Source of the DNA: Acidobacteriota bacterium
GTDB lineage: Bacteria > Acidobacteriota > Terriglobia > UBA7540
NCBI GenBank assembly: GCA_021789565.1
Contig: JAJYJL010000419.1
Coordinates: 1 to 7,042 of the forward strand
Reading direction: 5' to 3'
DNA: 7,042 nt
Shown: positions 1 through 6,942 of the stretch, piece by piece
Layout: each line of letters starts with the position of its first letter
Numbering within the stretch: the stretch's first letter is position 1
Notes under the pieces: model-generated
Told to the model about the DNA's origin: nothing
Databases searched by the model: none
Seen by the model: only the letters and a program-made list of their open reading frames with translations
Made by a program: the position numbers and the translations under genes

Positions 1-638
1 GAACCCGTTACCACGTTGTAAGCCCCTGCGGGCACGCCCGCCTCAATGGCCAGCCGCGCCAGGCGCAACGCACTGAGGGGCGTGTTCTCAGAAGGCTTGT
101 GGACCACGCTGTTGCCGGCCGCGAGTGCCGGTCCGATCTTATGGAGCGCAAGATTGAGGGGAAAATTAAACGGCGTAATGGCAGCGATCACGCCCAGAGG
201 CTCCCGCACCGTCATGGCCCATCGGCCTTTGCCCGTAGGCGCCGATTCCATCGGGACCACCTCGCCATGCAGACCACGCGCGGCGTCGACTGAGGCCGCA
301 AGCGTCTGTTGCCCGCGCGCCACCTCGCCTCGCGCTTCGCGAATGGTTTTGCCGGTTTCAAGCGTGACCAGGCGCGCAAACTCTTCGGCGTCACGCTCCA
401 GCAGGCTGCGCATGCGCTGGAGCAGCTCAGCGCGTTCATACTGGGTGAGGTTGGCCATAGCCTCTGCGCCCACCTGGGCCGCCTTGACAGCCCGGTCGAC
501 CGTGGCGGCGTCGGCATCGTAGACTTCCGCCACCGGCGTACCGTCATAAGGAAGGCTGATGGTCCGCACCTGAGACGTGCGGATCCATTCGCTGCCAATC
601 AGCATCAGAAAGGTCTGTTTTTCAATTGCCGGTTTCAT
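1..638 (-). CDS. Aldehyde dehydrogenase, N-terminal part (runs off the left edge)
   Basis: This gene encodes an NAD(P)-dependent aldehyde dehydrogenase, which oxidises an aldehyde to the carboxylic acid, probably in the cytoplasm. Only the first 212 codons are present; the catalytic cysteine and C-terminal half lie outside the window. The reading frame is open from the ATG at 638 to base 1. Visible family features are TLETGKTIREA (residues 93-103), REPLGV (145-150), AITPFNFPLNL (153-163) with the conserved asparagine N158 of the active site, and HKPSENTPLSA (180-190) with K181 of the cofactor-binding site. The sequence most resembles the lactaldehyde / succinate-semialdehyde dehydrogenase branch as I remember it, but the substrate cannot be read from this half. 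A GAAGGA ribosome-binding site 8 bases upstream supports the start. The gene is divergent from the lipid cluster, so a role in oxidising a fatty aldehyde from that pathway is only a possibility. Confidence 0.93.
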   Translation of the reverse strand, partial: MKPAIEKQTFLMLIGSEWIRTSQVRTISLPYDGTPVAEVYDADAATVDRAVKAAQVGAEAMANLTQYERAELLQRMRSLLERDAEEFARLVTLETGKTIREARGEVARGQQTLAASVDAARGLHGEVVPMESAPTGKGRWAMTVREPLGVIAAITPFNFPLNLALHKIGPALAAGNSVVHKPSENTPLSALRLARLAIEAGVPAGAYNVVTG

Positions 639-1073: not shown

Positions 1074-1700
1074 ATGATTACCCGGAAAATCGGTGACGTT
1101 TGCTGGTATGGCTATGACGCGATCATACGGTCATTTGTAAAGATCAGAGTTAATCCCAACTTGCTGAGCTTTACGGGCTTTGCCATCAATCTGGTTGCCG
1201 CTTATCTGTTTGCTTACGGCTATTTCCGCTGGGCGGGCGTAACCATTATTTTGGGCGGGATTTTTGACCTGACAGACGGCCCGGTAGCCCGCACTACGCG
1301 CCGGGTAACACCTTTCGGCGGCTTTTTTGATTCGGTGCTGGATCGCTATTCCGACCTGTCTCTGCTGGTCGGCCTGTTAGTTTATTACGGCCGGGTCAAC
1401 CGTTTCATGTACGTGGTAGTGGTGGCTCTGGCGATGATCGGCTCCGTGATGACCAGTTATTCAAGGGCACGCGCGGAGAACCTGATCCCTTCCTGTAAGG
1501 TGGGCTTTCTGGAGCGGCCCGAGCGCGTGGTTCTGATCATTATCGGGGCGCTTTTTGACCGCATGGCGCCGGTACTATGGGTGATTGTGGTGCTCTCAAA
1601 CCTAACCGTCGTTCACCGCGTGATCCACACCTACCATGAAGCCCGGCGGATGGAAGCCGAAGCCAATACGACTCCTGCCGCGCCGGTAGCCCAATCTTGA
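1074..1700 (+). CDS. CDP-alcohol phosphatidyltransferase, phosphatidylinositol-phosphate-synthase-like
   Basis: This 208-residue integral membrane enzyme belongs to the CDP-alcohol phosphatidyltransferase family, which joins a CDP-activated lipid (such as CDP-diacylglycerol) to a hydroxyl-bearing headgroup and releases CMP. The full catalytic signature DX2DGX2ARX8GX3DX3D is present: D65, D68, G69, A72, R73, G82, D86 and D90. Upstream is the usual NPNLLSFTG stretch (residues 27-35), and about six hydrophobic segments fit the family fold. SYSRARAE (128-135) followed by GFLERPERVV (144-153) resembles the region that binds inositol phosphate in mycobacterial-type phosphatidylinositol-phosphate synthases, so a sugar- or inositol-phosphate acceptor is plausible; glycerol-phosphate or another alcohol is not excluded. 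The start is the only practical choice, because an in-frame stop lies at 1062-1064. No good ribosome-binding site is visible. It is the first gene of the plus-strand cluster and would supply the headgroup step. Confidence 0.9.
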   Translation: MITRKIGDVCWYGYDAIIRSFVKIRVNPNLLSFTGFAINLVAAYLFAYGYFRWAGVTIILGGIFDLTDGPVARTTRRVTPFGGFFDSVLDRYSDLSLLVGLLVYYGRVNRFMYVVVVALAMIGSVMTSYSRARAENLIPSCKVGFLERPERVVLIIIGALFDRMAPVLWVIVVLSNLTVVHRVIHTYHEARRMEAEANTTPAAPVAQS

Positions 1701-1779: not shown

Positions 1780-3351
1780 ATGGCGCAACAATCACAATTG
1801 ACGGATGCTGGGCGAACCTTCCGGGAGAACGAAATCCTCTTAACCGGAGGAAATGGATTCCTGGGCAAAGTGATCCTGGCAATGCTGCTGGAGCGGTATC
1901 CCGACCTGAAGCATCTCCACTTGTTGCTGCGGCCCGCCCGGGGCCTTTCCGCGGCGGAGCGTTTTAACAGCGAAATCATGGATTCGCCGGTAATGGCCGC
2001 GCTGGTCGCGACGGCAGGCGAAGAATTTGTCCGGGAGAGAGTCAGCGTCTGGCCCGGCGAACTCAGCCAAACCGGTTGCGGGCTCGACGAGCAGGCGCTG
2101 AAGGTGATTGCGGCCCGCGTAAAGCTGATCATCAATTGCGCAGGAAAAGTTGAGTTTTTCCCTCCCGTCGACGAGTCGCTGAAGGCCAATGTTGACGGCG
2201 TGGAAAATGCCATCGCTCTGGCCCGGCGTGCTGGCGCCCGGCTTCTGCACATTTCCACCTGCTTTGTTTCCGGCGAGGCCAACGGCCTGATTGAAGAAAC
2301 CGAGCCCATCCTCGGTTTCTACCCGCACCGCAAAGGGCCCGACGATAACGCCTTCAACGTTCTCAATGAGCTTGCTTACTGCCGCGAGCAGGCCCGGTTG
2401 ATTACCGAAGGTGAAACAACCAGTGAGGATTCCAGAGCCCGGTCCAAAGAAACAGTGCAGAAACTTGTAGCGCTGGGTAAGCGGCGGGCAGAACACTGGG
2501 GATGGGTCAACACTTATACCTACTCAAAAAGCCTGGGCGAACAACTGATCGCGCAGGAAAAGGACCTCGCGTGGTCTATCGTACGCCCGGCGATCGTTGA
2601 AAGCGCCTTGCGGTTTCCCTTCCCCGGCTGGATTGAAGGCGGGAGGACCGCGGCGCCGCTTGTACTGATGGCCATGGGCGGACTGAAGCACTGGCCCGTG
2701 CGACGCAACACTCCGCTGGAAGTCGTTCCCGTGGACCTGGTGGCAGCGGCGATTCTGGCAGTGGGCGCGCTGCTGCTGGACGGCCGCGCGGAAAATGTTT
2801 ATCAACTGGGAACGGCGGACGTGAATCCCATCAGGCTGGGACCGCTGGTGAATCTGCTGCGGCAGGAAGCGAGAAAACGGGTGCGCCGGTACGGCAAAGG
2901 AGGACTACGCATCCGCATTGCCGCTTCGCGCGGGCGGGCGCGCTTTATTTCGTTGGAAGAAGCGCGGGCCCGGCGGCTGAAGCTGGAAAAACGTATTCAG
3001 CGGGCGCAGGCTATCATTGACCGCATGCACGGTGCCGTGAAAAACGTCAGGTTGCCGGGGAAAAAATCTCTGGCGGGCTGGCAGAGCGCACTGCGCACCC
3101 TGGGCTTGCAAGCGCGGTTCCGGGAGCAGACACTCGACCAATACCTGCCGTTCATCCTTTACAATCGTTACATCTTTGAATCGGAAAACATTCGAACCGC
3201 GTACAGCCGAATTTCCGAAAGAGACAAGATGTTGCTGCCTTGGGACCCCGAACGGATTCACTGGAAAAATTATTGGATCCACCATCAAATCGAAGGAATT
3301 GAAAAGTGGGTTCAGCCCGAAGCCGTGAAGGAATGGTCGTTTAAGATATAA
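1780..3351 (+). CDS. Alcohol-forming fatty acyl-CoA/ACP reductase (FAR)
   Basis: This 523-residue protein is a fatty acyl reductase that uses NAD(P)H to convert an acyl thioester to a fatty aldehyde and then a fatty alcohol. The N-terminal Rossmann domain (about 17-350) has the nucleotide loop TGGNGFLGK (22-30), NCAGKVEF (119-126), LLHISTCFVSG (155-165) and the catalytic YX3K pair Y246/K250 in NTYTYSKSLGEQL. IVRPAIVES (267-275) and PFPGWIEGG (280-288) are hallmark FAR segments, as is VVPVDLVAAAI (315-325). The C-terminal part (about 455-510), with YIFESEN and IHWKNYW, fits the FAR C-terminal (male-sterility) domain. The alternation of motifs closely follows the roughly 510-residue Marinobacter-type bacterial FAR as I remember it. 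A strongly basic stretch (364-430) between the domains may contact membrane or carrier protein. The ATG is the only start: the frame upstream is open back to a TAG at 1687-1689 but contains no ATG, GTG or TTG. Its neighbour could supply acyl-ACP substrate. Confidence 0.9.
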   Translation: MAQQSQLTDAGRTFRENEILLTGGNGFLGKVILAMLLERYPDLKHLHLLLRPARGLSAAERFNSEIMDSPVMAALVATAGEEFVRERVSVWPGELSQTGCGLDEQALKVIAARVKLIINCAGKVEFFPPVDESLKANVDGVENAIALARRAGARLLHISTCFVSGEANGLIEETEPILGFYPHRKGPDDNAFNVLNELAYCREQARLITEGETTSEDSRARSKETVQKLVALGKRRAEHWGWVNTYTYSKSLGEQLIAQEKDLAWSIVRPAIVESALRFPFPGWIEGGRTAAPLVLMAMGGLKHWPVRRNTPLEVVPVDLVAAAILAVGALLLDGRAENVYQLGTADVNPIRLGPLVNLLRQEARKRVRRYGKGGLRIRIAASRGRARFISLEEARARRLKLEKRIQRAQAIIDRMHGAVKNVRLPGKKSLAGWQSALRTLGLQARFREQTLDQYLPFILYNRYIFESENIRTAYSRISERDKMLLPWDPERIHWKNYWIHHQIEGIEKWVQPEAVKEWSFKI

Positions 3352-3403
3352 CGGGAAGGGCGTCAGGCAACGGTTTCACGCATCGCAGGAAAAAGGCAAC
3401 CCG

Positions 3404-3481
3404 TCAGACTGAGTGTAACGAAGCATCTGCTGTTAATCCGCCACAGCAAACAAAGCAGGTTCTTCGCATTGCTCAGGATGA
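3404..3481. repeat. Imperfect palindromic intergenic element
   Basis: The left arm (3409-3431) begins CTGAGTG and ends CGAAGCATCTGCT; the right arm (3454-3476) begins AGCAGG and ends TTCGCATTGCTCAG. Read as reverse complements, the arms agree at 16 of 23 positions, and the outer TCA (3404-3406) matches the TGA of GATGA (3477-3481). Inside, TGCTGT (3428-3433) and ACAGCA (3443-3448) form an alternative small hairpin. The layout resembles a dispersed palindromic repeat that I associate with acidobacterial intergenic DNA; that link is from memory. It fills more than half of the 131-base gap between reductase and carrier-ligase genes and reaches the start codon of the latter. No second copy was found in the window. 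Confidence 0.55.
3475..3478 (+). promoter_or_regulatory. Likely ribosome-binding site of the carrier-ligase fusion gene
   Basis: AGGA lies 4 bases before the ATG at 3483, a short spacing. It is part of the right end of the palindromic element. In-frame ATGs at 3501 and 3516 lack a better-placed site, so 3483 was kept as start; the choice affects only residues before the carrier domain. Confidence 0.4.
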
Positions 3482-3482
3482 T

Positions 3483-6311
3483 ATGCCCGAATCACTTTGC
3501 ATGAGCAATCAGGAAATGACAACAACGCCTCGACAAATCGACGCGGCGAAGATTGAAGAGCAGATGCTGCAGATTGTTCGCGAGCTTCTGGCCGAGCTGG
3601 GATCGGCGCGCGCGGCGGAATCGGTCACGCTGAGTTCTTCGCTTGAGAGAGACCTGGGACTGGGAAGCCTGGAGATGGTGGAGTTGCTGGTGCGTACGGA
3701 AGCGCGCTTCAACGTCCGGCTGCCCGACCGTATTGCTGAAGAAGCCGATACGCCTGGCGATTGGGTGCGCGCCGTTGCCGGCAGCGAAGATGAAGCGCCA
3801 GCAGCCTCGCAGCGCTACACCATCAGGCAGCCCGGGCGTGTTGCACCGCCGCCACCGGAATCAGCCCGGACACTGATTGAAGTTTTGCGCAAGCACGCCG
3901 AGGTCGATCCGGAGCGCGTCCAGGCGCACGTGCTGGAGGGCAACTCCGGCGAAGACATCAGCTACGGCAAGCTGCTGGCCACAGCTTCAGACGTGGCAGC
4001 CGGTCTGGTTTCTGCGGGGCTGCGGCGGAATGAAACCGTTGCTATCATGCTGCCCACGTCGCCACAATTTTTCTACGCCTTTTTTGGCGTCATGCTGGCG
4101 GGCGGAATCGCGGTACCCATCTATCCTCCGGCACGTCCGGACAAGATTGAGGAATACGTCCGCAGACAGGTGGGAATTCTCCGCAACGCGGAAGTGCGAT
4201 TTCTGATTAGTTTTGAAGCGGTCCGGCGAGTTTCCGAACTTCTCCGCCTGAATCTTCCCAGCATTCTGGGCGTGACCACCGTCGAAGACCTCGCCGCGAG
4301 TGGCACGAGGTTGCAGCCTGGTGCCATCGAAGCCGCTGAAGCGGCTTTTATCCAGTACACCTCCGGCAGCACCGGCGAACCCAAGGGCGTGGTGCTGACG
4401 CAATCGAACCTGCTGGCCAACATTCGCGGCATCGGCTGGGCGGTGAACGTGCAGCCCTCAGACATTGTGGTGAGCTGGCTGCCGCTTTATCACGACATGG
4501 GCCTGATCGGCTCATGGCTTTACAGCGTTTACTATGCCCTGCCCATCACGATTCTTTCGCCGTTGGCTTTTCTGCGCCGGCCGGAAAAGTGGTTGTGGGC
4601 GTTGCATGACTCCGGCGGCACGCTCTGCCCCGCTCCGAATTTCTCCTACGAACTTTGTGCGCGCAAGATTCCCGACAGCGCGATCGAAGGGCTTGACCTG
4701 AGCGCCTGGCGCGTGGCCATCAACGCCGGTGAGGCGGTGCTTCCCGACACGCTGGAACGCTTTGAAAAGCGCTTCAAGCCTTATGGCTTCCGGGCTGAGA
4801 GTTTTGTGCCGTGTTACGGACTTGCCGAATCCTCCGTAGCGCTGGCGTTTCCACCCATCAACCGCAGGCCGGTGATTGACTGCATCCGCCGTGACGTTTT
4901 TGAGGCTGAAGGCAAAGCCGTTCCGGCCGCTCCTGATGATTCCAGCCCCCTGCGCTTTGTGGCTAACGGCACAGCGCTACCGGGGCACGAAATCAAAGTG
5001 ATCGACTCCGACGGGAATCCGCTCGGCGAGCGCGTCCAGGGCAAAGTGCTTTTCCGCGGGCCGTCCAAGACCGATGGATACTTCCGCAACCCGAAGGCGA
5101 CCGCAGCCGTCACCACCGAAGACGGCTGGATGGATTCCGGTGATCTCGGTTACTGGGCCGGCGGCGAAATCCACATCACGGGCCGCGCCAAGGACCTGAT
5201 CATCAAGTCCGGGCGCAACATCGTTCCGCAGGAGGTGGAACTGGCTGCGGCCGAAGTCCCTGAAGTGCGGCGGGGTTGCGTGGCGGCCTTCGGCAGGCGC
5301 GACCCGGACCTCGGCACTGAGCAACTGGTGGTAGTGGCGGAAACCCGCGTGGCCAACAAGGAAGACCTTGACCGCATTGAGGCGGAGGTGATCGAGCGGG
5401 TTGGCTTGGCGGTGGGTATTCCACCCGACAAAGTCGAACTGGTGGCGCCGCAGAGCATTCCCAAGACTTCCAGTGGCAAGATCCGGCGCAATGAAACCCG
5501 ACTGCTCTTTGAGCGTGGCGAACTCGAACTGAACCGCCGTCCGCCATGGCTCCAGATTTTGCGTCTGTGGTGGGAAAGCCTTGGCGTGTGGGCTCGCATG
5601 GTGCTGAAGCACGCGGGCAGGTGGCTCTTCCGCAAGTATTCGCAGGCACTGGTCTCCGTTGTGGCGGTTTGCGGCGGCCTCGCAGCGCGCGCCGTTCCCA
5701 GCCAGGAAGCCAAGGGCGCAATCGTCGCCATGTCGTCAAGATCTCTCCTAAAGCTGCTCGGCCACAAGATCAGCTTTGAGGAGAGCGAGCGGATCGAATC
5801 GGGGCGACCCTCGGTCCTGATGGCCAATCGAGCTGGCGTCGTCGACGCTCTGGCACTGGCCGCCACGCTTCCGATGCCCGTGCGCTTCTCCGATTCCGGA
5901 GCGCTCGATTCCCTTCCGGGCGTCCTGGTTTATCTGCTGCAGCCTATGGTTCTGCCGCCATTTCGCGAGCCCGCGCTTCCCCCGGGTGGCACGTTGCGCC
6001 AGCGCATTCGAAAGGGTTTGGAAGACGGCCATTCGGTCATTGTGCTTTCTGAGGGACCTCCTGCGGTACCGGCCCATCTCAGCCGGTTCCGCCTGGATGC
6101 TTTGGACGCGGCAGTGCAGACCGCCAATCCGATTTATCCTCTCGGAGTTCGCGGAACATCCTCTATACTTGCTTTGGGTAGGCGGATGTCGGGGCACGGG
6201 GAAGCAACGATTACTGTAGGTGAGCCCATTCACATCCAGATTAACGATGTGCGAGAGCTCACCGTGCTGCGGGAGCAGGTCCGGGAAGCAATTGCCAGGC
6301 TCTGCTCCTGA
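3483..6311 (+). CDS. Acyl carrier domain - fatty-acyl-AMP ligase - PlsC-like acyltransferase fusion
   Basis: This 942-residue protein has three parts. Residues about 20-100 are an acyl carrier domain; LGLGSLEMVEL (58-68) places the phosphopantetheine-bearing serine at S62. Residues about 125-680 are an AMP-forming ligase with YTSGSTGEPKGVV (292-304), WLPLYHDMGLIGS (332-344), CYGLAES (444-450), DSGDLGY (551-557), GRAKDLIIKSGRN (567-579) and the C-terminal catalytic lysine K666 in KTSSGKIRR. The HDMGLIG and APNFSYELCAR (384-394) segments match fatty-acyl-AMP ligases that load carrier proteins rather than CoA. Residues about 740-942 align with PlsC-type lysophosphatidate acyltransferases (ANRAGVVD 781-788, SEG 856-858, IYPLGVRG 884-891), but Arg783 stands where the catalytic His of HX4D should be. 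Hydrophobic and basic residues 689-740 may attach the protein to the membrane. It probably activates a fatty acid onto its own carrier domain for the upstream reductase. The set recalls myxobacterial ElbD without its reductase part; the functional link is inference. Confidence 0.9.
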   Translation: MPESLCMSNQEMTTTPRQIDAAKIEEQMLQIVRELLAELGSARAAESVTLSSSLERDLGLGSLEMVELLVRTEARFNVRLPDRIAEEADTPGDWVRAVAGSEDEAPAASQRYTIRQPGRVAPPPPESARTLIEVLRKHAEVDPERVQAHVLEGNSGEDISYGKLLATASDVAAGLVSAGLRRNETVAIMLPTSPQFFYAFFGVMLAGGIAVPIYPPARPDKIEEYVRRQVGILRNAEVRFLISFEAVRRVSELLRLNLPSILGVTTVEDLAASGTRLQPGAIEAAEAAFIQYTSGSTGEPKGVVLTQSNLLANIRGIGWAVNVQPSDIVVSWLPLYHDMGLIGSWLYSVYYALPITILSPLAFLRRPEKWLWALHDSGGTLCPAPNFSYELCARKIPDSAIEGLDLSAWRVAINAGEAVLPDTLERFEKRFKPYGFRAESFVPCYGLAESSVALAFPPINRRPVIDCIRRDVFEAEGKAVPAAPDDSSPLRFVANGTALPGHEIKVIDSDGNPLGERVQGKVLFRGPSKTDGYFRNPKATAAVTTEDGWMDSGDLGYWAGGEIHITGRAKDLIIKSGRNIVPQEVELAAAEVPEVRRGCVAAFGRRDPDLGTEQLVVVAETRVANKEDLDRIEAEVIERVGLAVGIPPDKVELVAPQSIPKTSSGKIRRNETRLLFERGELELNRRPPWLQILRLWWESLGVWARMVLKHAGRWLFRKYSQALVSVVAVCGGLAARAVPSQEAKGAIVAMSSRSLLKLLGHKISFEESERIESGRPSVLMANRAGVVDALALAATLPMPVRFSDSGALDSLPGVLVYLLQPMVLPPFREPALPPGGTLRQRIRKGLEDGHSVIVLSEGPPAVPAHLSRFRLDALDAAVQTANPIYPLGVRGTSSILALGRRMSGHGEATITVGEPIHIQINDVRELTVLREQVREAIARLCS

Positions 6312-6345: not shown

Positions 6346-6942
6346 ATGCCTACAAGTACATTGGGAATCATCATCCGATTGATTGTGTGCTTCCTGCTGG
6401 GATCCATACCATTTGCGGTTCTGGCCATGATGGGCAGTGGCATTGACATCCGCGACGTGGGGTCCGGAAATCCCGGCTTCAATAACGTCTTGCGGGTGAA
6501 CAAGTGGCGCGCGGTGCTGACACTGATCGGCGATGTGGGCAAAGGCTATTTTGCCGTGTGGCTGGCCAGCCACGGAGCTCCTGGACCGGCACTGGGCTGG
6601 CTATTTGGTTTTGGGGCCATTCTGGGCCATTGCTACTCGCCGTTTTTGAAGTTCAACGGCGGCAAGGGCATTGCAACCTCGGCGGGCGTAATGCTTCAGC
6701 TTTATCCCGTGTGGGCCGCGATAGCCATAGCTTATTTCGCTGGGATGCGAGTGACAGGCAGCCGCCTGAAATGGCCTGAAGCGGGTGCGATGGCTTCCAT
6801 GAGCACATGGGTTGTCTTTACGATTCTGATGCTGGCCTTCGTAAGTTCTGCAAATGCAGTGTACGCCGCTTTGCTGACGCTGTTCCTCGGCTGGAGGCAC
6901 AAGAAGAATTTCCAGAACCTCCTAGCCCGGCGCAACGCTTGA
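6346..6942 (+). CDS. plsY: Glycerol-3-phosphate acyltransferase, PlsY family
   Basis: This 198-residue multipass membrane protein belongs to the PlsY family, which transfers an acyl chain from acyl-phosphate to glycerol-3-phosphate, giving lysophosphatidate. Seen in order: an N-terminal membrane helix ending in LGSIPFAVL (18-26); motif 1, IRDVGSGNPGFNNVLR (35-50), with the essential-type S40 and R50; GDVGKG (62-67); motif 2, GHCYSPFLKFNGGKGIAT (94-111), with the glycine-rich phosphate loop; and a motif 3-like RHKKNFQNLL (184-193) keeping H185 and N188. Two points differ from ordinary PlsY: motif 1 has GFNN where GATN is usual, and the protein stops without the conserved C-terminal glutamate region. 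It may be a specialised paralogue. The start is needed to keep the first helix; the ribosome-binding site is poor. It lies 34 bases after the fusion gene and is probably cotranscribed. No plsX, the usual source of acyl-phosphate, is in the window. Confidence 0.88.
   Translation: MPTSTLGIIIRLIVCFLLGSIPFAVLAMMGSGIDIRDVGSGNPGFNNVLRVNKWRAVLTLIGDVGKGYFAVWLASHGAPGPALGWLFGFGAILGHCYSPFLKFNGGKGIATSAGVMLQLYPVWAAIAIAYFAGMRVTGSRLKWPEAGAMASMSTWVVFTILMLAFVSSANAVYAALLTLFLGWRHKKNFQNLLARRNA

Follow-up and report, generated by a model that had tools for sequence, protein, structure and literature searches.

A stand-alone acyl reductase and an ACP-ligase-PlsC-like fusion in a probable variant elb cluster of Acidobacteriota

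The window, by which we mean the whole 7,042-nucleotide stretch of DNA analysed here, probably represents the upstream half of a variant Acidobacteriota elb cluster, in which the job of ElbD is divided between a stand-alone fatty acyl reductase (FAR) and an ACP-ligase-PlsC-like fusion that feed ether-lipid synthesis (we put the probability of this reading at roughly 60%). At the level of sequence, homology and genomic context make a strong case for an elb variant, and an ether lipid is the product that we infer by analogy with Myxococcus xanthus. The open reading frames define five genes, the last four of which all lie on the plus strand with gaps of 79, 131, and 34 bases between them:

3-638, minus strand: divergent aldehyde dehydrogenase, truncated by the left edge (open frame and family match)
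1074-1700, plus strand: CDP-alcohol phosphatidyltransferase (CDP-OH_P_transf, 1.1e-17)
1780-3351, plus strand: stand-alone FAR, 523 aa (NAD_binding_4, 9e-53, residues 21-325)
3483-6311, plus strand: ACP-ligase-PlsC-like fusion, 942 aa as called (PP-binding, 6.6e-8; AMP-binding, 1.3e-59)
3576-3776, plus strand: ACP domain of the fusion, residues 32-98, carrier serine at residue 62 (GLGSLEM) (Pfam, alignment)
3888-5084, plus strand: AMP-binding ligase domain of the fusion, residues 136-534, FAAL type (Pfam, NCBIfam, PDB match)
5769-6149, plus strand: PlsC-like domain of the fusion (Pfam stretch), residues 763-889 (sub-cut-off Pfam match, predicted structure)
5829-5831, plus strand: Arg783 codon in place of the NHX4D catalytic His, with Asp788 retained (alignment)
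6346-6942, plus strand: PlsY glycerol-3-phosphate acyltransferase (Pfam, 3.1e-39)

The frames, the family matches, and the model of the PlsC-like domain confirm the core of the original prediction, namely a complete FAR beside a carrier-ligase-PlsC fusion, accompanied by PlsY and a CDP-alcohol gene. The FAR and fusion frames are not chance, because each protein shows 57-100% identity to its 120 best listed homologues; those with a taxon name come from Terriglobia or other Acidobacteria, most of the listed homologues being unnamed. Most of the fusion's nearest homologues measure 930-931 aa and the alignment of most relatives begins at residue 10-12, so a later ATG is likely the true start, giving a product of about 931 aa. 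No Rfam match was found anywhere in the window.

The FAR carries a glycine-rich cofactor motif and Tyr246/Lys250, invariant across a 14-row alignment, and aligns with the solved fatty acyl-CoA reductase 7eoz (145.5 bits); its C-terminal Sterile match is sub-threshold (28.2 bits versus a Pfam cut-off of 35.4). Long FAR fusions were sought with the FAR and the fusion joined as the query, and the FAR part alone was scored. Among the 120 best matches to this query, 115 are at least 1,400 aa long and most have Pfam domains for the FAR, ligase, ACP, and PlsC-like parts, which is the domain set reported for ElbD in excerpts of PMC9426513 and PMC9131029. These ElbD-like homologues, with which our ElbD comparison was made in place of M. 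xanthus ElbD itself, align with 95-100% of the window FAR at 33-38% identity, and their named sources include Myxococcales, Vulgatibacter, Kofleriaceae, Vicinamibacteria, and Pyrinomonadaceae.

A genome scan for FAR loci returned 563 matches, the best 80 of which comprise 62 stand-alone FAR loci (39-84% identity; Acidobacteriota-labelled groups except L008 and L026) and 18 ElbD-like loci (33-38%; Myxococcota, Acidobacteriota, and a few labelled Deltaproteobacteria or Proteobacteria). The FARs of L008, from a contig titled Nitrospirae, and L026 (Acidimicrobiia) nest inside Acidobacteriota clades and are perhaps mis-binned or mislabelled. In a FAR tree of 92 rows (fragment L060 excluded; L104 and L105, repeats of L041 and L058, included), the stand-alone group of 64 rows, two of them repeats, has a branch support of 100 and the ElbD group of 19 rows a support of 97. 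The two unite against two other FAR groups with a support of 83, a value that calls for caution given the long branches. Outside its own clade, the window FAR is nearest to the N-terminal domain of ElbD-like proteins, a grouping with moderate support in the tree. One of the two other groups (L094-L098) had first been read as AT-FAR like MXAN_1675, but Pfam assigns an N-terminal HAD domain to L098, and those frames beside the L096 and L098 FARs that were tested are not AGPS; we therefore used the group solely as an outgroup. L098 itself is an acidobacterial HAD-FAR fusion protein with an adjoining NAD_binding_4 reductase, and L094-L097 are alike in length and FAR position.

In contrast to the FAR, the fusion departs from the corresponding part of ElbD. 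Its domain order is ACP-ligase-AT, whereas ElbD-like proteins read ligase-ACP-AT. The best PDB match of its ligase is the FAAL 3pbk (306.6 bits) and the best NCBIfam model is PRK09192 (439 bits, below the cut-off of 600), while the three ElbD-like ligases tested are nearest to acyl-CoA ligases; the two kinds of ligase share 22-32% identity in matched pieces. By kinship, the fusion ligase is of the fatty acyl-AMP ligase (FAAL) type. The ACP serine is present in 119 of 121 rows (the window and the 120 best homologues), the other two having gaps. Separately, the L033 fusion (Solibacteraceae) has Ala at this position, so that either its ACP is inactive or the alignment has slipped. With a leading ACP, a FAAL-type ligase, and a PlsC-like domain devoid of the catalytic His, the fusion is, judged by its domains, not the severed back half of ElbD. 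The idea of a divided ElbD, which was to be judged by the domain order and phylogeny of both proteins, thus survives in part: it stands on the kinship of the FAR and on the elb-type neighbours found in relatives, and it fails where the fusion was to supply the rest of ElbD.

The PlsC match of the C-terminal domain falls below the Pfam cut-off of 23 (16.3 bits, rising to 19.8 when the piece is searched by itself); in the predicted structure (pLDDT 88.4), for which Foldseek placed T. maritima PlsC 5kym at the top (E 5.9e-10), the PlsC fold is confirmed as modelled. This domain has NRAGVVD where NHX4D is expected and EGPP instead of EGTR. Arg takes the place of the catalytic His in 119 of 121 rows (the window and the 120 best homologues) and the Asp is kept in all 121; the two exceptions have Cys (P0175) and His with a motif gap (P0227). 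By comparison, all 115 ElbD-like proteins of at least 1,400 aa have NHX4D and EGTR in their C-terminal part.

Fusion homologues beyond the FAR-type clade occur in 10 of 297 phylum genomes besides G001, and as second copies in FAR carriers. The 14 that were aligned (L111-L124; nine taken from genomes that lack the stand-alone FAR clade, the other five being additional copies in genomes that carry the FAR) share the domain order of the window fusion and 38-45% identity with it, but all 14 keep NHX4D, and no FAR or elb genes were found in the stretches read around them. Conversely, Arg is present in 33/33 FAR-type rows (31 distinct genes; one row is truncated before the Asp), including the unlinked copies of G009 and G011 and that of G339, where no FAR matched. 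A single branch with a support of 100 separates Arg from His fusions in a tree whose root is not fixed (L108, a repeat of L033, and frames under 780 aa left out; L129 repeats L030); from the PlsC family, we infer that His is the ancestral state. His-type fusions were first weighed against a special FAR-fusion partnership; their sequences instead gave the His/Arg contrast. Loss of the His as a means of steering the acyl chain to the FAR would match its distribution, which marks the FAR-type clade, a fit that falls short of proof. Alternatively, the fusion could be an ordinary self-loading acyltransferase for phospholipid remodelling in which Arg is tolerated, as the modelled PlsC fold and the universally kept Asp would allow. 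We judge this very unlikely, given that His is found in every outside-clade homologue and every ElbD-like protein above and is absent throughout the FAR-type clade, and that the EGT motif is lost as well. Rather than acylating glycerol, the fusion probably loads itself with a fatty acid and passes the chain to the FAR.

The gene neighbourhood of relatives links the FAR and the fusion to the elb system. In L002, L007, L009, L011, and L012 (genes assigned by Pfam in L002 and by BLAST in the other loci), the order is FAR, fusion, PlsY, HAD phosphatase, Lar_N protein, SDR, and a DAG kinase-like gene, and in ElbD loci it is HAD, Lar_N protein, ElbD, and SDR. As the elb gene set of M. xanthus, described in passages of PMC9131029 as elbB (HAD), elbC (unknown function), elbD, and elbE (epimerase/dehydratase), corresponds to these genes, we call those of the relatives ElbB, ElbC, and ElbE types; the M. 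xanthus proteins are absent from the loci compared, and the assignment is by type. Among the best 80 of the 563 matches, the 18 ElbD loci contain ElbC in 18 cases, ElbE in 16, and ElbB in 15, and the 62 stand-alone FAR loci contain the fusion in 30, PlsY in 29, ElbB in 21, ElbC in 20, ElbE in 19, the kinase in 19, and the CDP-alcohol gene in one. PlsY accompanies the fusion in 22 of the 30 loci in this set with FAR and fusion on one stretch. Where such a stretch, within the same best 80, continues for at least 5 kb beyond the fusion, at least two of ElbB, ElbC, and ElbE follow in 12 of 17 loci; they were not found beyond the fusion in the other five (L006, L018, L020, L022, and L039), and the L018 genome has ElbB-ElbC-ElbE elsewhere. 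The window itself holds none of the three and ends shortly past PlsY, before their expected place; in its nearest relative, L001, the contig breaks off after PlsY with just the beginning of ElbB present. The L030 and L033 clusters include the FAR, the fusion, ElbB, and ElbE, and ElbC was not found in either cluster.

The CDP-alcohol gene is different. Besides the window it was found in L001 alone of the 62 FAR loci among the best 80 of the 563 matches, so it lies outside the conserved module, and the headgroup gene built into the proposed nearly self-contained locus is not conserved among relatives. The enzyme comes closest to archaetidylinositol-phosphate and phosphatidylinositol-phosphate synthase models without reaching their cut-offs, and may attach an inositol headgroup in close kin of the window. 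As a further peculiarity, L001 has two extra frames between the FAR and the fusion (11844-13899), one of 467 aa with a TonB_C match and one of 178 aa with no family.

A second, fusion-less arrangement appears in nine loci among the best 80 of the 563 matches, where the FAR adjoins elb genes. Five of these (L041, L051, L052, L057, and L058) have the full order ElbB-ElbC-FAR-ElbE-kinase, L049, L050, and L053 are truncated by the contig start, and L055 has ElbB alone; a full-length fusion was not found in the FAR-bearing genomes of this kind that were searched (G012, G108, G144, and G201). The FAR, ElbC, and ElbE trees divide ElbD loci from stand-alone FAR loci alike (fragments, weak matches, and L104/L105 were excluded from the latter two trees), with the sole exception of L041, which joins the ElbD side in the ElbC tree with a support of 94.

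Across 150 genomes of one order, which we judge from the locus names to be Bryobacterales, the FAR was matched in 30 and the fusion in 31, with both in 30, so the two genes co-occur. The fusion was counted at E <= 1e-140, and eight further genomes gave ligase-only matches; for these FAR and fusion counts, as for those in the 297-genome set, the first few candidates per genome were scored, and no match does not equate to absence. The FAR-fusion hypergeometric value of about 1e-30 ignores kinship and is not readable as a probability; the co-occurring genomes are related, and therefore the counts overstate independence. In the phylum at large the stand-alone FAR clade is not common, as it appeared in four of 297 genomes (G001, G144, G108, and G201). 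Together, the elb-type neighbours of relatives, the matching trees, and the co-occurrence of FAR and fusion support the link to ElbD.

Orthologous ElbC (at least 58%) is present in 25 of the 150 genomes, 24 of which are FAR carriers; of the remaining six of the 30 carriers, a distant LarA relative was matched in five and neither kind in the last (G416, 3.5 Mb). Linkage varies among these genomes. On one 6.2-Mb contig of G011, distances of over 1 Mb separate the FAR, the fusion, and ElbC from one another; G009 has its fusion at least some 2 Mb away from the FAR and ElbC, which are perhaps about 70 kb apart if the chromosome is circular. G006 and G328 have the FAR on a separate contig but keep the fusion and ElbC no more than 3 kb apart, so the link of the fusion to the elb genes may be no looser than its link to the FAR. 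In G339, the fusion and ElbC were matched and a FAR was not. The genes for the nickel-pincer nucleotide (NPN) cofactor were discarded as an indicator for ElbC: LarC and LarE each occur in 143 of the 150 genomes, and finding them in 29 and 30 of the 30 FAR carriers is therefore uninformative.

FARs commonly supply fatty alcohol, and the FAR studied here might make such alcohols for wax esters or another neutral lipid, with the elb neighbours serving that pathway. Consistent with this, 23 of the 62 FAR loci among the best 80 of the 563 matches have neither the fusion nor elb genes on the stretch, and most of these stretches are long (17 exceed 16 kb). In the six genomes of these 23 that were searched, however, orthologous ElbC lies elsewhere in five and a divergent LarA in one (G004). 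The presence of ElbC in carriers even where it is unlinked, the ElbB/ElbC/ElbE neighbours with their parallel trees, and the finding of no wax ester synthase by Pfam among the five window proteins make this explanation unlikely, although the boundary between it and ours is soft, since M. xanthus elb lipids include neutral ether lipids (excerpts of PMC9131029).

In the variant elb cluster that we favor, the FAAL would adenylate a free fatty acid and load it onto the ACP of the fusion itself, and the PlsC-like domain, having lost its catalytic His, would withhold the chain from glycerol phosphate. The FAR would then reduce the ACP-bound chain to an aldehyde or alcohol, and ElbB, ElbC, and ElbE would help to turn this product into the alkyl chain of a glycerol ether lipid. 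PlsY would provide acyl-glycerol phosphate and could compensate for the lost AT, and the lipid kinase and HAD phosphatase would interconvert glycerolipids and their phosphates. As a sub-case of this explanation, with overlapping odds, the module might yield fatty aldehyde rather than alcohol as a vinyl or alkyl ether precursor. The weak Sterile match at the FAR C-terminus would suit an aldehyde, as would the report, in passages of PMC9131029, of i15:0 aldehyde in M. xanthus wild type and not in elbD mutants, with fatty alcohols undetected. The alignment to 7eoz, taken as sequence likeness with the product of 7eoz aside, points the other way, and the same passages deem a reductive route from vinyl to alkyl ethers implausible since CarF was found; we regard the aldehyde as possible but doubtful.

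Passages of PMC9131029 also correct two points about M. xanthus. There, MXAN_1676, which had been taken for ElbD, is the AGPS homologue. Its disruption lowers ether lipids only slightly, while elbD loss lowers them strongly, so the lack of an alkyl-DHAP synthase (AGPS) in view, originally listed as a gap, is no objection. Other reports stand against our reading, as do G339 and the FAR loci where elb genes were not found: according to the same text, the FAR and AT activities of M. xanthus ElbD were undetected in vitro and ElbE is only "possibly" involved; an excerpt of PMC11868695 reports that Pontiella has elbD homologues, yet ether lipids were undetected in its isolates.

The variant has FAR, AMP-ligase, ACP, and PlsC-like parts in common with the M. 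xanthus elb operon (elbA-elbE), and relatives of the window share its ElbB/ElbC/ElbE-type neighbours. Unlike that operon, it has the FAR as a separate gene, a FAAL-type ligase, an ACP-ligase-AT order, and a His-less AT; PlsY and often a YegS/DAG kinase-like gene join it, and the gene order differs. The elbD clusters of sponge Acidobacteriota and Poribacteria are likewise elb-type but have one core gene with all four domains (excerpts of PMC9426513). The elb system itself is already known; the divided arrangement is a new variant, and no description of a divided ElbD was found in the titles and abstract openings of the openly licensed literature searched. Passages of PMC11868695 call it unclear how Acidobacteria make ether lipids and the brGDGTs that serve as climate proxies, and passages of PMC10087280 report that Solibacter usitatus makes i15:0 mono- and diethers although it lacks ElbD. 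A rearranged elb set may help explain ether-lipid making in such Acidobacteria. A divided ElbD is missed by screens that require the whole protein, and a BLAST screen like that described in part of PMC11868695 (30% identity, E below 1e-30) could score the FAR as ElbD, overlooking that the remaining parts differ. The variant also dissects ElbD naturally: the FAR is kept, usually with ElbB, ElbC, and ElbE, the ligase is replaced, and PlsC-like catalysis is seemingly lost.

ElbC of the relatives is, by homology, a LarA-like protein of the nickel-cofactor type. In L002 (15824-17512) it matches Lar_N (4.2e-37) and, over both halves, the LarA-like nickel-pincer enzymes 9q2u and 9q3j (127 and 125 bits). 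His155, Lys230, and His246, which we take to be equivalent to the catalytic His, cofactor Lys, and Ni-ligand His of LarA, are invariant in 39/39 rows (including two divergent LarA relatives and two repeats), and a further His (NHD motif), aligned with a LarA catalytic His, is common but not invariant. This likeness suggests a cofactor for ElbC, whose function in Myxococcus is unknown. The text passages, titles, and abstract openings of the LarA literature searched mention no lipid role for LarA-type enzymes, and the LarA-like enzymes described there have hydroxy acids as substrates or show ties to carbohydrate metabolism. A bolder scheme, which we consider distinctly improbable, would take the conserved elb core to be the FAR with ElbB, ElbC, and ElbE, and not the other domains of ElbD. 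The ether bond would be made without AGPS: the FAR would deliver an aldehyde or alcohol, ElbC would act as an NPN hydride-transfer enzyme that helps to form or set the glycerol ether, and the His-less PlsC-like domain would hold glycerol phosphate or acyl-ACP. If true, this role of ElbC would be the first for the NPN cofactor in membrane lipid synthesis; we know of no earlier one. Divergent LarA proteins were counted apart from ElbC, and two of them, L092 (from the carrier G008) and L093 (from a different genome, G004), sit on a very long branch. In G008, G384, G403, G408, and G448, the distant LarA relative is the only one present, possibly replacing ElbC.
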